This document shows positions 1,090-59,600 of a stretch of 64,000 nucleotides of DNA, in pieces. The notes under the pieces were generated by a model that was not told the origin of the DNA, did not search any database, and saw only the letters and a program-made list of their open reading frames with translations. Origin of the DNA: Scenedesmus sp. ARA3 (taxonomy: Eukaryota; Chlorophyta; Chlorophyceae; Sphaeropleales; Scenedesmaceae); the NCBI GenBank assembly GCA_004335835.1, contig RWJK01001745.1, positions 142,895 through 206,894 on the forward strand, given 5' to 3'. Numbering within the stretch: position 1 is the first letter of the stretch; each line of letters begins with the position of its first letter. Both the position numbers and the translations under genes were made by a program.

Positions 1090-4000
1090 TCACAGCGTGC
1101 TTGTGACAGGGCTGCTGGTGCCGCTGCCTGCAGCGCTGCCACTCATAATCAGATCCTGCCAGTCAGGCGGCAGCTGGTGCTGCGCCAGGCTGCTGCCGTG
1201 CTGCTGCCGCCGCCGCTGCTCAGCCCGCTTGCCTGCCCTGCTGCCTGCGCTGCGCGGCACGTACGACCTATCACCCGCATCCTGCTGCTGCTGCTCGCTG
1301 CCAGTGCCGTCCCAATACCCATCTTCCGCTACTCCTTCTAAGCTGGCATTGTCCACAATGTAATCTGTAAAGATCTCATCTTGTGAAAGCGTCTCCAGCT
1401 GCCCGTTGTCCCCATCATCTGTCACACTGCCTATTGTACTGCCTGCTGTGCTGCTGCCATCAGCGGTACAGCAGTACGGTTGCAGCTTGCCGACAAGGCA
1501 GAGAGGTACACGTGCTGTCAGGCGCGTGCCTTGCTCTGTGTATGCTGTGCTGCTGACTTTGCCCATCTTGTGAAGCTCGTCAAGCAGGGCACCAGCAGAG
1601 TAGGGCAGCAGCACCTGCAACAGCAGCATTGGTTTGGCAGAGCCAGCACCACAAATATGATGAGTGTGCTTGTAGGTGAGATGAGCTCAACCTGCTGTGT
1701 GGAGACTTACAAGCTCGACAGGTGCGCTGCACATCACCTTGCATGCACAGCAGGTGTTGCTGCTGCAGATGCCACTGGCTGCAATGCTTTTCATTCAAAA
1801 AACCAGACAGCCACCGCTAAGCAGCGCGCTGTGCTGCACCCTGCTTGCTTACTCAGACAAATGAGCTGCTGCCATGCTGCAGATCCTTCACCCACCTCCA
1901 TCTCCACCATGCTCTCAGCCAGCTTGCCAGCCACAGCCGCCATCAGCGCCTGCAGGCCCTCGCCAGGTGCCCCGCTGATGCAACTACTTCTAGCCCCAGC
2001 GTTGCTGCAAGGCCACCCAATCTCACCCACAAAAACACTTGCAGCAGGTGTATACAATGCCGATCAACAAACTGCTGCACAAGCACCGACACACCACCAG
2101 CTATGCTGCAAAAACGAATCAAACAGCACGAGCACAGCACCCACCTCCATCTCCACCATGCTCTCAGCCAGCTTGCCAGCAACAGCAGCCATCAGCTGCT
2201 GCAGGCCCTCGCCACTTGCCCCACTGATGGCTACCGTGTCTGCGCGGCTGGCTGCAAGCGCAGCTACTGCTGCCGGGTCGGGGCAGGCGTCGATCTTGTT
2301 CCAGGCGGTGACCAGCGGCAGGTCCTGCACCCCCAGCTCCTCCAACACCTGCCATCAAACATGAATGTGAAAGCAGTAGGAGCAGTACATAGGTGTGAGT
2401 TTAGTTTGATTCATGCTTGGTTGACTGAAGTATCAGGCGTCGATCTTGTTCCAGGCGGTGACCAGCGGCGAATCCTGCACCCCCAGCTCCTCCAGCACCT
2501 ACATGAAAGAGTGGAGAAGAGAAACAAAACATTGATCCAAGAGTAACAACACAACAGATGTTAAGCAAGCAGATATGCACCATGATCCTGAGACAGCTAA
2601 GTGTAGCATCATGCCTGGGAAGCAATACGCAAATGCACGCAACAGCAGCCACAGCAGAGATTAAAGCGCACACCTTGCCACACCCAGCGCGCCTGCAGCA
2701 CCGCCGCACACTGCGCGGGCGCGTTATCGGCCGGGACGTCCAGCACATGCAGCACCACCGAGGCCGTGGCAATCTCTTACAGCGTGGCCACACACACCTA
2801 GACCTAGAACACAGCCCCAACTTCACCAAGCATGTTAGTTGTTCAAATGCAACACAGGCCCTAAACACAGAGACACGTATATATCCACACATCAGCAGCC
2901 CACCACGAAACGTAGTCGCACGCCAAGCACCGCCCATCTCAGAAACACCCAACGCACCTGCAGCACCGCCGCACACTGCGCGGGCGCGTTGTCCGCTGAA
3001 ACGTCCAGCACATGCAGCACCACCGATGCCGAAGCGATCTCCTCCAGTGTTGCCCTGAAGGCCGCCACCAGCTGGGTGGGCAGCTTTTGGATGAAGCCCA
3101 CCGTGTCACTAAACAGCACCTCCAGGTTGCCCCCAGGCAGCCGCACCTAATGCAAGAAGTTGTCGCAAGCACACAAGAAGATAGCACGGATGAGAACGAG
3201 GCAGGAAGAAGCAGTTGCAGCTTGTGTTGAAGCCCACGGTGTCACTGCGAAGGGCTTCCAGGTTGCTACCCGGCAGCTGAACCTGGCACGCAGACATACA
3301 CACAAACTACGAGCAGCACGACTGAGCATGAGACTGTGAAGAGCAGTGCAAGCGCTTGAAACCGGCAACGCTGAGTTGCCACCCGGCAGCCGCACCTAGC
3401 ACGCAGAAACAGATACCAAACAGCAGCGCAGCTGAGCGTGAAGCAGCATAGTTTTCCATGAGTGACAGCTTCTGGATGAAGCCCACAGTGTCACTGAACG
3501 GCACCTCCAGGTTGCCACCTGGGAGCCGCACCTGCGGTACAGATTTGTTTGGAAGCAGGGCAGCTGAGATGGTGCAGAAGAGCGCAGTGGCAGCTTCTGG
3601 ATGAAGCCTGCCGTGTCGCTCAAGAGGACTGTAAGGTCCAGCTGGCAGCCACACCTGAGGCACAAGCAAACAAACACAAGAGAGTGGCGCAGATGCGAAT
3701 GAGGCAGAAGACAGCAGTGGCAGCTTCTGGATGAAGCCCACAATGTCCCTGAAGAGCACTTCCAGGTTGCCCCCAGGCAGCCGCACCTAGCACGCAGAAG
3801 CAGATGCCAAACAGCAGCGCAGCTGAGCGTGAAGCAGCGGAGAGCAGTGGCAGCTTCTGGATGAAGCCCACGGTGTCACTGAACAGCACCGCCAAGTTGC
3901 CACCTGGCAGCCGCACCTGATGCAGGGAGTTGTCGCAAGCACACAAGAGGAGTAGCACAGGTGAGCATGAGGAAGAGAAGCAGCAGACCACTTGACACGG

Positions 4001-56600: not shown

Positions 56601-59600
56601 TGCACGGCCCAGCTCAGCACAGCACCACGCAGCCCCACCTTCCGTGTCAATGGCAGCTGCTCCTGCCGCTTTTTTGCCTTACCTACCTGCTGCCTGCTTG
56701 AATATCTGTTATGTTATTTGCGCCTGCAGGCCACGCTGTCAGCAGCACAGCCCGGCTGGGCAGACCCAATCCTAGCAGCAGTAACACAGCTGCTAGACAG
56801 CCATGAGCTCGACCTGCAGCTGCTTGCAGCTGTGCTGCTGCGGCTAGAAGACCTAGCAGTTGGGCAGCAGGTGCATGCGGCACGCGAGGTGCTGCTGCTG
56901 CAGCAGCAGCAGGGCTTCGGCAGCAGGCAAGCCAGCAGCAACGGGAACACCCCGGGAGATGCGGCAGGCGATGCAGCGGTGGCAGCAGTGCAGCAGGCGT
57001 CTATGCCGCCAGAAGTTGAGGCTGCAATGCAAGTGACGCTGCAGCAGCTTGCAGGAAACCTGTCAGCGCAGCAGCAGCAGCGGCCCGGGCCGCAGGGTTC
57101 GGCCGGCAGCGTGGTTTATGTCATGGCAGCCGAGGTTCAGGGTTCTTGGAAGGCGCTTAAAACGCTGTGCTGGTGCGATGATGAGCTTGCGAGGCGTGTG
57201 GCGAGGCACTGGCTGCAGCAGCTGCTGGCGCTGACGCTGCAGCAGTCGCTCAAGGTGGGACCCAAGGCGGACGAGATCCGGACTAGAAGCAGCAGGTTTG
57301 AAATGCTTGTGTGCGTGCACATGTGCTGGAAGTTTCTGGGTGATGACATGCTGCAGATTGCCGGCTGAGCCTGGGGTGCATTCCTGTTGTTGTATGCTGA
57401 GGCATCGCATGCTGAACATCTGCCTGCAGACAGCATTATGTTGCTTGACCCTTTGCCAAGGTGCTGTGTCTGTAAGCAAGTGTGGAACCGCTTAGGATAA
57501 CAGCCATCTGCTGCCTCTGTTATGCAATGCTTCTGTTTGCGTTGGCCAGGGAACCATTTTGCTTCCGCTGCCAGGGGTGACTCAGCGCTCAGTAACAGCA
57601 CCAGCAGCAGCAGCAGCAGCAGCAGGGCCCAGCAGAGGCAGCACTGGCGGCAGCACAGCGGCAGCAGCAGCAGCAGCAGCAACAACTGCGGCCATCAATG
57701 CAGCATGCGATGCATGGGTAGATGTATTGGTGCAGCTTGTCAGTCACTGCCCCAAGGGCCCTGACATGCTGGTTGATGCTCTGCAGCTGCATATAACATG
57801 CTGCAAACTGCAGCTTACAGGTGATAGGTCTGACCCAGATTCCACGCTACAGCCTCTCACCCCATCATCCTCAGCAGCAGCAGGTGCTGCTGCTGCTGCT
57901 GCTGCTGAGGCGGCATCGCAGGGCCGCAGCCGGCAGCAGCAGCAGCAGCGCGCGGCAGTTGCGCGCGTGTGTGTGCAGGCGTGGGCGTTTGTGTGCCAGT
58001 GGGTCATGCAGGCAAAGACAAGCAGCAGTCAGGTTGCGCTGACAAGGCTAGCTGCCATGGCCCAAAGTCTAGTGTGTGTGCCAGAGGTGCCTGATTGGGT
58101 AGATGCATTAGGACCGCTTCCAGCTTTTGATGGCGCTGCAGACACAGCAGCAGCAGCAGCAGCAGCAGGAGGAGGAGGCGGTGCTGCTGCTGCTGCCGGC
58201 ACCCGCAGCAGCAGAGAGGCAGCACCTCGTGCAGAGCATGCTGGCTTAGATCGCAGTGTCAGCAGTGATACAGCAGCAGCAGATCTTGCGGCAGCAGCAG
58301 CAGCAGGGGATGAAGCAGCAGCATACAAGGGTGTCCCGCCTCCTGAGCCGAGCTCAGAGCCGTCTTCCCTTGCTGCTCTCTGGGCAGCAGAAGAGGGCAG
58401 GGGCTCTGCTGCTGCTGCTGGTGGTCACGAAGGGGGCTGGGGGCCCGGCGCTGCAGCAGCTGCTGCGTGTGCTGCTGCTGATGCAGTGTGCTGGCCACAG
58501 GCGTTCCTGCTGGGGCGTGCGCTGCTGCCTCAGGTGAGATTAGTGGGGCTTCTTTTGCTGAAAGTATACGTGTTAGATGTGCAGCGTACACTGGGATGTG
58601 TGCCTGTGACAACAGTGTGTCGCATGCACATGACGCATTTTCTGATATGCTGTCACAGCACACTGTCACAGCATATCAGACAATGCGTCATGTGCACGCG
58701 ACACACTGTTCTCACAAGCCCTGCCAGACAACTTGTCTGGTGTGCTGAGGGTGCCGGTGCCTCACTGCAGTTGCTGCAAAGCATGCTTTTATTTTACTGG
58801 CAGTGTCGAACGTTTCCTTTCATACCCACACTGCCTCACCTTGATACCACCAATGTATGCATCGTCAACAACTGCCTGGTCGCTGCTCGCTTTCATCTGG
58901 TGCTATGGTGGCCTGCACCTTCCTTGCAGCAAATGGCGCAAGTGCTGTCAGGAGCCTCGCTGGCGCTGCTGCTGGTGCGGCTGCTGCAATGCAAGCAGCC
59001 CAGCAGAGCAGCAGACAGAGGCTTCCATGGCAGGCCTAGCTACTGCCCCCAGCCACCAGCAGCAGCAGCAGCAGCAGCAGGGGGCCAGCCCAACAGCAGC
59101 AGCAGCAGCAACCTCAGCTGGAGTGCCACCAGCAGAATACAGCAGCAGCAGCAGCAGCAGTTTGGCCAGGCGGCAGCAGCAGGCAGTGCGGGCAGCAGCA
59201 GCAGCAGCGTGCTGCCGTGCCCCGTGCTGTACCCTTGGTGTGATGGGCGGCAGGACCTGCAGCTGTCGCTGCTGCTGCTGCTGATGAGCAGCTGCAGCAG
59301 CGAGGCTGGCAGCTTTGCCGAGTATGGCTTGGAGGCAGTGACACAGCAGGTGAGTTGAGCTTTCACGTCCTGTCGGGTTGAGTTCAGTTGAGTTGGGTTG
59401 TCGCAAAATCATCTTGACACTCAACTTGCTCTACTTGTGCCTCTGAATCTTTTGGCCCCGGATGATGCGCTTGCCTCTTCTCCCCTCCAATGCTCAAACA
59501 CTTACATGTGACACTCCTTCTGAAGCAAACATGGCTGTGTGTGTCTGTTTTATTGCAGGTGCTGTCGCGCTGCCCGGACCCGCGCGCCTGCCTGCTGGCC

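Follow-up and report, generated by a model that had tools for sequence, protein, structure and literature searches.

The 64-kb stretch of the Scenedesmus sp. ARA3 assembly analysed here (the window) carries hflX, truB, MCM8, SGNH, DnaJ, ankyrin A and one large gene, and pieces of their exon edges, about 125 letters long and with the splice signal included, were found repeatedly in the adjoining introns. Self-BLAST of the window retained 152 of 402 pairs past a simple-sequence filter. All retained pairs at most 1 kb apart with at least 75% identity were in direct orientation, and the inverted pairs retained over the same distance (n=5) were 65–71% identical. Each of the seven genes, as the preliminary description had listed them, does show an exon edge accompanied by a partial same-strand copy on its intron side when read or aligned (Table 1). 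The hflX, truB and MCM8 sequences were read or aligned; among SGNH, DnaJ, ankyrin A and the large gene, five pairs were aligned and the rest judged by eye.

Table 1. Exon edges and their partial copies in the window (a slash in a motif marks the edge).
Gene	Feature	Position	Strand	Evidence
hflX	Downstream copy of 3' edge (real 2138-2229), GT retained	1889..1980	-	self-BLAST, reading
hflX	Upstream copy of exon 5' edge (real 2284-2359)	2434..2508	-	self-BLAST, reading
hflX	Some 7-8 copies in an array upstream, repeating the 5' edge of the following exon with a period near 130 bp	3217..4139	-	TRF (period 130), self-BLAST, reading
hflX	GTP-bdg_M exon, borders approximate	4962..5119	-	Pfam, reading
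hflX	Two upstream copies of GTP-bdg_M exon 5' edge (5213-5286, 5317-5384), each with AG	5213..5384	-	self-BLAST, reading
truB	Two upstream copies of exon 5' edge, unit 114 bp	15022..15255	+	TRF, self-BLAST, reading
truB	3' end: last coding part, TAA and 3'UTR, then copies	16447..17137	+	TRF, self-BLAST, reading
MCM8	Two downstream copies of exon 3' edge	21741..21998	-	TRF, self-BLAST
MCM8	Exon edge with four copies upstream of it, period 125 bp	24988..25523	-	TRF, self-BLAST; L014 coordinates 2045-2584
MCM8	Exon edge with four copies upstream of it, at offsets 102, 227, 352 and 477	25989..26563	-	TRF, self-BLAST; locus L014
MCM8	Repeat block at exon 5' edge (27571-27683) and upstream copy (27706-27823)	27571..27823	-	self-BLAST; locus L029
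SGNH	Exon 3' edge at 34592-34715, copied downstream at 34807-34930; both have donor GTGAGT	34592..34930	+	self-BLAST, reading/alignment
DnaJ	3' edge (39441-39511) and downstream copy (39556-39626), offset 115	39441..39626	+	self-BLAST, reading/alignment
ankyrin A	Upstream copy of exon 5' edge and real edge	43754..43890	+	reading/alignment
large gene	Exon 3' edge with a copy downstream, at an offset of about 130	52567..52753	+	reading/alignment
large gene	Exon 3' edge with a copy downstream at offset 111; both carry GTAAGC	53118..53285	+	by eye
large gene	Real 5' edge at about 55475 with a copy upstream (AG/GTTGAG, about 55373) at offset 102	55372..55510	+	by eye

At hflX the Pfam GTP-bdg_M domain matches in three frames, and the exon behind the large array has its real start near 3146. 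The truB exon starts fall at 15028 and 15142 in the copies and at 15256 in the real exon; the copies at the 3' end of the gene, at 16665, 16884 and 17071 with a unit of 218–219 bp, involve no splice site. The real MCM8 exon belonging to the two downstream copies lies at about 22146–22346 and ends ...GELQ/GTGGGT. In ankyrin A the AG is at about 43753 in the copy and about 43864 at the real edge, with about 60 bp of intron flank recognisably duplicated too. The DnaJ edge may be a donor, or instead the end of the coding sequence (GAG/GTGTGA).

Beyond the window we sampled 90 exon-centred Pfam core loci from MCM, kinesin and DEAD genes and compared each exon core with its own 1.5-kb flanks, using the inverted strand and cross-family pairs as controls; these loci are not independent, there being several per gene, 97 overlapping locus pairs and one locus (L028) that is itself a copy. 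At E<=1e-6 a same-strand copy was present in the own flanks of 24/90 cores, compared with 0/90 for the inverted strand and 25/5400 for cross-family pairs, so that the pattern, whose genome-wide extent had been proposed from the window, does reach past it. At E<=1e-4 the corresponding counts were 28/90, 1/90 and 88/5400, and the matches divided into 78 direct and 1 inverted, in agreement with the same-orientation rule drawn from the window. The placement of 5' copies upstream and 3' copies downstream likewise held at this threshold: the expected core end was carried by 69 of the 78 direct matches, the core 5' end by 37 of 42 upstream matches (39 within the 5' half) and the core 3' end by 32 of 36 downstream matches (35 within the 3' half). 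If an exon is to keep working after a duplication across its junction, the spare copy has to end up on the intron side, so this rule follows from geometry and does not serve, as had been argued, as independent evidence of mechanism. Identity between copy and exon averaged 0.87–0.88 (range 0.68–1.00). An AG or GT was retained in 60 of the 69 copies; attachment of the splice site is thus usual but not essential, as the truB 3' array demonstrates. No same-strand match (0/78) covered both core ends, and tandem exon duplication with both splice sites was accordingly rejected, with one exception by reading: at L080 a whole exon of about 60 bp is repeated within a 134-bp unit, although which exon there is the real one is uncertain.

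The copies do not fill the introns of nearly every gene, as first described. After two of 54 defined introns had been dropped for want of splice sites, 15 of 52 complete introns held copies and 37 held none, and cores with copies numbered 14/30 for MCM, 12/30 for DEAD and 2/30 for kinesin. Median intron length was 445 bp with copies versus 233 bp without, which supports the proposal that the copies are a source of intron growth. In the loci that were read, non-exonic filler is present between copies.

In form the copies resemble tandem duplications whose unit is narrowly confined to about 100–140 bp and its multiples. Offsets to the nearest copy fell at 99–165 bp in 28/34 cases and at 223–373 bp in the other six, and a lag spectrum computed without gene models placed 83 of 216 repeat windows at 100–139 bp, 46 at 220–269 bp and 4 below 90 bp. 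The narrowness of the unit is absent from the earlier sequence-only description. TRF arrays had units of 60–400 bp in 1.8–4.5 copies, head to tail, as in minisatellites or VNTRs (units above 10 bp, several copies), and the largest copy number at one edge was up to ten (L075). In all 24 nearest pairs below 175 bp the splice junction lay at 23%–82% of the unit. Detection is poor for shares below about 20%, and the value of 82% comes from L022, where the automatically picked exon start is a copy and the real one is found a unit further along. L022 and L080 are included in the splice-site, offset, flank-identity, flank-homology, decoy-strength and junction-position counts, and L022 also in the array means below; the L022 TRF array has weak cross-family core matches only and was counted as an edge array by reading.

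The two halves of the duplicated unit have diverged to very different degrees. Mean identities in eight arrays were 0.92 for exon halves, 0.82 for inner intron halves and 0.62, near background (chance level 0.57), for the outermost flank. In 28 nearest pairs the exon side was 0.87–0.96 identical and the intron side 0.61–0.66 at 10–55 nt, compared with 0.49–0.59 for unrelated introns; intron flank homology reached P<=0.05 in 15 pairs, the other 13 being without significant homology. L075 reverses the outer-below-inner trend (0.78 versus 0.70), in a test that left out copies beyond 1.1 kb and hence the true outermost copy. Under plain duplication the intron half would be copied as well and would then diverge at about double the rate of the exon copy. 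Given an intron side at 0.61–0.66 against an exon side of about 0.90, and an outermost flank near background, plain duplication needs something more: the short tandem duplication originally proposed, its two breakpoints lying one in exon and one in intron sequence, accounts for the orientation and side of the copies, the attached splice site and the growth of introns but leaves the divergence of the intron halves unexplained. The outer flank is apparently unrelated (0.53) even in the young arrays L070 (TRF match 99%) and truB, which makes a seed copying the exon edge without its intron a candidate. Selection against decoys was rejected as the reason for intron divergence, AG or GT being kept in 60/69.

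Differences between copy and exon fell 65/53/111 on the three codon positions, with 101 synonymous, 126 non-synonymous and 2 stops, in a count that left out L075, L083 and six loci with uncertain exon borders (L022 and L080 being among the excluded loci). By hand arithmetic this equals the expectation for neutral copies plus an exon changing synonymously only. The copies evolve as dead sequence next to an exon that drifts almost only synonymously, a pattern on which a coding function for them was rejected. At L083 variants are shared mosaically among copies, intron flank included, and neighbouring sites are more compatible than shuffled ones (P=0.003); the same test gave P=0.94 at L075 and was uninformative at L014. 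The real L083 exon differs from the copy consensus at 12 sites, 11 of them synonymous, and copies may accordingly derive from alleles of a very diverse population.

We lean towards reading these structures as minisatellite-like arrays, seeded by short tandem duplications and then shaped by exchange. The seed would be a duplication of about 100–140 bp across an exon–intron junction or, as in truB, a coding/3'UTR border. Exchange between copies, by gene conversion or by unequal exchange via the common exon half, would add and remove inner units and, because the real exon is under purifying selection, would keep the exon halves alike; the outermost intron flank would lie outside the exchange and so diverge. 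The duplications, then, are probably old ones in which exchange with the real exon has maintained the likeness of the exon halves, the exchange step being inferred from few arrays, with L083 for it and L075 against. Duplication plus exchange offers no explanation for the narrow unit length, and a scarcity of intron-only repeats is not predicted by it unless fast intron decay hides such repeats.

That scarcity bears on two rival accounts. One is that short tandem duplication is random and occurs everywhere, with neither exchange nor targeting, and that edge copies remain recognisable for more time, one of the two partners being conserved. The comparison with random intron positions, proposed with the preliminary description, found intron-only repeats near absent: alone in 0/52 introns, together with edge copies in 1/52, and alone at 3 of 145 exon sides. 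In a power simulation over five settings, 32–56 of 60 intron-only repeats and 53–59 of 60 edge repeats were detected. The intron halves of known edge duplications, however, were detected alone in only 6/23 or 6/22 cases (two runs), as random duplication would have it, and with that low sensitivity the scarcity is not significant (P=0.08, 0.25, 0.45). Because intron halves decay fast, the junction excess is only suggestive, with P from 0.003 to 0.45 by assumed sensitivity. The codon-position counts also agree with neutral copies. Against random duplication stand the narrow unit length and a junction-side intron identity well below that predicted from twice the copy divergence. In addition, 15 of 16 arrays with whole-unit similarity straddle an exon edge (P=0.0074 versus uniform placement within introns; at most one is intron-only), including all six with a match of at least 90%, in loci that are exon-centred and where the conserved exon half helps arrays pass the threshold. 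We regard it as a less likely account.

An equally tentative alternative is that about 125 bp around splice junctions is duplicated or inserted by some process linked with transcription, with splicing or with the chromatin of exons. The near absence of intron-only repeats and the position of the junction well inside the unit in every close pair favour it, as do the excess of copies in MCM and DEAD cores over kinesin cores (26/60 versus 2/30, P=0.0003) and the longer introns of MCM, CCT and proteasome genes. Set against these are the loss of significance after correction for sensitivity, the truB 3' array at a stop codon rather than a splice site, and the lack of a significant length excess of DEAD over kinesin introns (P=0.2). 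Moreover, two young arrays occur at the kinesin locus L046, and the difference between gene classes may in part reflect sampling. The case is weakened once faster intron decay is allowed for, and targeting of junctions is no more than plausible. A specific version, in which duplication in this lineage is provoked by the splice junctions themselves and edge copies of about 125 bp are repeatedly added or refreshed by a process coupled to transcription or splicing, is rather unlikely; it could act through repair at junction-centred R-loops, for example, or through conversion templated by exon-only transcripts, and if true the introns of busy genes would grow outward from their exons in units. Other routes to duplication include rad27 duplications, paired-nick duplications in plants and transcript-templated repair, and internal gene duplication was reportedly treated by Gao and Lynch in 2009.

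It is improbable that the copies are in use, as alternative or poison exons or as splicing-regulatory decoys under selection. Retained splice dinucleotides and the third-position excess within arrays (0.106 versus 0.057 and 0.046) would fit such use, but by hand estimate the retention is near that expected from neutral divergence near 10% and the excess is close to that predicted from copying the exon at different times; no match spans both core ends, and the non-synonymous share equals that of unconstrained copies when the two largest arrays are excluded. A mobile element was rejected on a search with one array, L075, which skips very common words: it returned no whole-array match elsewhere in the genome, and hence no sign of such an element, but just a pair of short matches (38 and 45 bases). 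These likewise argue against an introner, a near-identical sequence at many unrelated loci. Collapsed or mis-joined reads can scarcely account for the copies even in draft contigs with a 26-base N run in the window (53600–53625), since the copies differ from the exon in a codon-structured way not expected of assembly error, and the same unit length recurs on many contigs with 78 of 79 matches direct.

The copied splice sites, proposed as decoys, come close to real ones in strength. Median acceptor strength was 9.5 bits for decoys versus 11.0 for real sites, median donor strength 11.4 versus 12.2 bits, and 22 of 69 decoys were at least as strong as their own real site. As the splice signal is copied along with the edge, the cell must ignore many near-perfect false sites. 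Decoy strengths so close to those of real sites point to exon definition: decoys would do no harm if pairing by the spliceosome takes place across the exon, between the innermost acceptor and the innermost donor. With decoys lying just outside real exons, so that the innermost pair must be chosen, these loci are natural experiments in splice-site choice. Copies could also be mistaken for exons by gene predictors.

Genome-wide exon-edge arrays were not described among the matches listed in the open-licence PMC literature. The closest precedent, in the part of the source available, is a single potato gene, RdRp, in which a tandem duplication across an intron–exon boundary created a new spliced intron; the duplicate comprised the intron 3' end and exon 5' edge, doubling the acceptor, polypyrimidine tract and exon edge (PMC4974935). 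The Scenedesmus copies are likewise direct, nearby and edge-containing, as the share of matches with the expected end attests, but intron flank homology is significant in about half of nearest pairs (15/28) and the outermost flank is near background. Unlike that one event in one gene, many exons are affected here, and the arrangement suggests that existing introns may simply have grown, with no new intron. The AGGT model (Hellsten 2011, as described in PMC4974935), in which exonic AGGT segments are duplicated and one copy becomes a new intron, shares a short within-gene tandem duplication that supplies splice sites; here, unlike in that account, an existing junction is duplicated. We rejected it as an explanation, the copies having their own AG or GT (60/69) with non-exonic filler between them and 37/52 introns being copy-free. 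Internal tandem repeats in human segmental-duplication genes overlap exon–intron boundaries and can alter introns, but the portion consulted concerns variable repeats in recent primate paralogues and mentions neither a unit length in common nor a genome-wide pattern at exon edges (PMC2812944). Pol alpha-primase action at DNA breaks yields small direct tandem duplications and is a possible maker of the short direct duplications whose decayed copies are seen here (PMC8355091).

Among green algae, tandem repeats in Chlamydomonas and Volvox are enriched near intron–exon junctions, as here concentrated at intron ends, and in Volvox are linked to ribosomal and heat-shock genes; as excerpted, that survey covered units of 1–50 bp, so units of 100–140 bp were outside its scope (PMC3887541). 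The assembly studied resembles Tetradesmus obliquus (GC 57%). Tabulated mean intron length in that species is 462 bp versus 230–302 bp in four other algae, and edge copies would provide an assembly resembling this long-intron alga with a source of directional intron growth in a characteristic unit (PMC5966456).

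Self-comparison of the window returned many direct repeats 100-300 bp apart in hflX, truB, MCM8, SGNH, DnaJ, ankyrin and the large gene, and five inverted pairs kept within 1 kb, with identities of just 65-71%. Reading of the window sequences bore out the preliminary description of exon edges with partial copies on their intron side, splice site attached. The assembly containing the window (87.3 Mb, 1567 contigs) has a GC content of ~57% and a splice consensus of CAG/GTGAG or GTGCG at donors and TGCAG/G at acceptors; in these traits it looks like a sphaeroplealean green alga, Tetradesmus obliquus being tabulated with a mean intron of 462 bp and 57% GC (PMC5966456). 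Outside the window, we analysed 90 loci, each built around an exon with a Pfam match to the MCM, kinesin or DEAD family; the loci are non-independent (97 overlapping locus pairs). Because members of one family match each other, a within-family control was unusable, and cores were compared with the flanks of other families (5400 pairs). At E<=1e-6, 24/90 cores had a same-strand copy in their own flanks, against 0/90 inverted and 25/5400 cross-family matches (28/90, 1/90 and 88/5400 at E<=1e-4; 30, 5 and 305 at E<=1e-3). The polarity described earlier, 5' copies upstream and 3' copies downstream, was recovered in these loci: 39 of 42 upstream matches fell within the 5' half of the core and 35 of 36 downstream matches within the 3' half. 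Edge copies are real, widespread among the sampled genes and above chance.

We also collected complete introns whose flanking exons follow one another directly in the Pfam profile; 125 of the 200 listed matches defined 54 such introns, of which 52 were analysed. Of these, 7 held copies of the left exon's 3' edge, 10 held copies of the 5' edge of the right exon, 15 held one or the other and 2 held an inverted pair; median length was 445 bp with edge copies versus 233 bp without. By family, cores with copies numbered 14/30 for MCM, 12/30 for DEAD and 2/30 for kinesin (MCM and DEAD versus kinesin, P=0.0003). Gaps between contiguous matches exceeded those of kinesin (n=30) in MCM (n=18, P=0.0019), CCT (n=26, P=7e-7) and proteasome genes (n=6, P=6e-4); DEAD gaps (n=6) were not significantly longer (P=0.2). 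Since one kinesin locus, L046, carries two young arrays at neighbouring exons and several loci share genes, this difference between gene classes is a lead, not a result. In some CCT genes, judged by coordinates only, gaps reach 1.5 kb and partial Pfam matches occur twice, suggesting exon-edge arrays there too.

The repeated unit is narrow in length. For 28 of 34 exon sides the distance to the nearest copy was 99-165 bp, and for the rest it was 223-373 bp. A lag spectrum computed without gene models (40-base windows, >=32 matches; 54 non-redundant loci plus the window) placed 83 of 216 repeat windows at 100-139, 46 at 220-269 and 4 below 90. In 24 nearest pairs below 175 bp the junction stood at 23% to 82% of the unit, where shares under ~20% are hard to detect and the 82% case (L022) has a misplaced exon start. 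At the DEAD-box locus L080 the exon (~60 bp) is shorter than the 134 bp unit, and the whole exon is repeated; around the core, degenerate versions of the DEAD motif lie next to intact-looking ones. At the end of truB the unit covers coding sequence, TAA and 3'UTR.

The arrays are best read as a minisatellite produced by junction-spanning tandem duplication, a reading that leaves the narrow unit length unexplained and the contrast between exon and intron halves incompletely explained. In the 28 nearest pairs whose exons are >=0.80 identical, identity fell from 0.87-0.96 within the exon to 0.75 at intron positions 3-6 nt and 0.61-0.66 at 10-55 nt; unrelated introns gave 0.49-0.59. Even so, homology of the intron flank could be recognised in 15 of these pairs. 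In eight multi-copy arrays, mean identity was 0.92 between exon halves, 0.82 between inner intron halves and 0.62 between the outermost flank and the inner ones (L075, whose copies beyond 1.1 kb were excluded, departs from the last pattern). A single plain duplication would predict equal similarity of outer and inner flanks. Under junction-spanning duplication, the contrast would be explained if old seed duplications were followed by later exchange between copies through the exon half, which would add inner units and homogenize exon halves and would never touch the outer flank. Direct evidence for such exchange is mixed: one array was positive (L083, P=0.003), one negative (L075, P=0.94) and one uninformative (L014). 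Copying of exon edges alone, with no intron attached, is a possible alternative process.

We asked whether duplication targets exon edges. Intron-only repeats occurred alone in 0/52 introns and with edge copies in 1/52; the significance of the deficit away from edges varied with detection sensitivity. They occurred alone in 3/145 exon sides (one, L005, takes in ~10 bp of exon), and 38 copy-free introns gave one weak repeat window. Simulation under equal neutral decay detected 53-93% of units inside introns across five settings; in real edge duplications the intron half was detectable alone in 6/23 or 6/22 cases. With this empirical sensitivity, P for the deficit was 0.08, 0.25 or 0.45, compared with 0.003 at a sensitivity of 0.6. 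Among 16 non-redundant whole-unit arrays in the loci (TRF, period 60-400, >=80% match), BLAST matched 9 to an exon core of the corresponding gene or family, and reading identified 6 more as edge arrays (two in L046 and one each in L070, L072, L091 and L022), a departure from uniform placement within introns (P=0.0074). The sole candidate intron-interior array lies in L074 and has no recognisable exon edge. Each of the six arrays matching at >=90% is an edge array (0.64^6, ~0.07, by hand). Reading added three edge arrays from the window (two in truB, one in MCM8). Because the loci are exon-centred and the conserved exon half helps arrays over the 80% threshold, targeting of exon edges by duplication is plausible but not established.

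The copies retain AG or GT in 60 of 69 cases (37 upstream, 32 downstream). Divergence from the exon at codon positions 1/2/3, without six loci of uncertain exon borders, was 0.085/0.052/0.242 upstream and 0.091/0.073/0.178 downstream. Without the two largest arrays there were 65/53/111 differences by codon position, comprising 101 synonymous, 126 non-synonymous and 2 stop changes. By hand arithmetic, 128 non-synonymous or stop changes in freely mutating copies correspond to ~179 copy changes, including 51 synonymous ones. The 50 synonymous changes left over compare with 51 expected on an exon lineage drifting only synonymously at an equal rate. On these counts the exon behaves as a constrained sequence and its copies as dead ones. 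Comparison of copies with one another on nine array sides likewise shows roughly double the variation at third positions (0.106) relative to first and second (0.057 and 0.046), as expected if the exon was copied at different times or converted its copies.

Decoy splice sites carried by the copies score close to real ones, with medians of 9.5 versus 11.0 bits for acceptors and 11.4 versus 12.2 for donors; the 95th percentiles for all AG and GT in the 180 bp upstream flank are 8.6 and 3.4 bits. Decoys at least equalled their own real site in 22/69 cases (acceptors 12/37, donors 10/32). Duplication puts decoys outside the exon, so correct splicing would have to use the innermost acceptor and donor together; this suggests exon definition.

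None of the open-licence papers listed by our searches described genome-wide exon-edge arrays. Among those read, the nearest case is a duplication crossing an intron-exon boundary in one potato gene (PMC4974935); related subjects are human repeats at exon-intron boundaries (PMC2812944) and, in Chlamydomonas and Volvox, tandem repeats close to the ends of introns, there with units up to 50 bp only (PMC3887541).

The window also holds two ankyrin-type genes that look like paralogues, two tetranucleotide arrays and a single long open frame, leucine-rich by eye and free of exon-edge copies.

Coordinates of individual features in the window, sampled loci and CCT genes
Feature	Position	Partner	Remark
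Two ankyrin-type genes, window	42000-48650		equal orientation
Ankyrin-type putative paralogous block	42158-42363	46521-46729	window self-comparison
Ankyrin-type putative paralogous block	42549-42751	47234-47436	window self-comparison
Ankyrin-type putative paralogous block	43146-43341	47840-48027	window self-comparison
Ankyrin-type putative paralogous block	43883-44124	48349-48580	window self-comparison
CTGC/CCTG array, window	10257-10324
CTGC/CCTG array, window	53512-53711		broken by 26 N at 53600-53625
Open frame, window	17656-19842		728 aa
Internal repeat pair of open frame	18047-18511	18586-19047	61% identity
L074 repeat	L074:2152-2306		81-bp period
L080 core region	1651-2124		locus coordinates
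CCT doubled match	C1492:3212-3295	3475-3642
CCT doubled match	C1492:9663-9818	9886-9993
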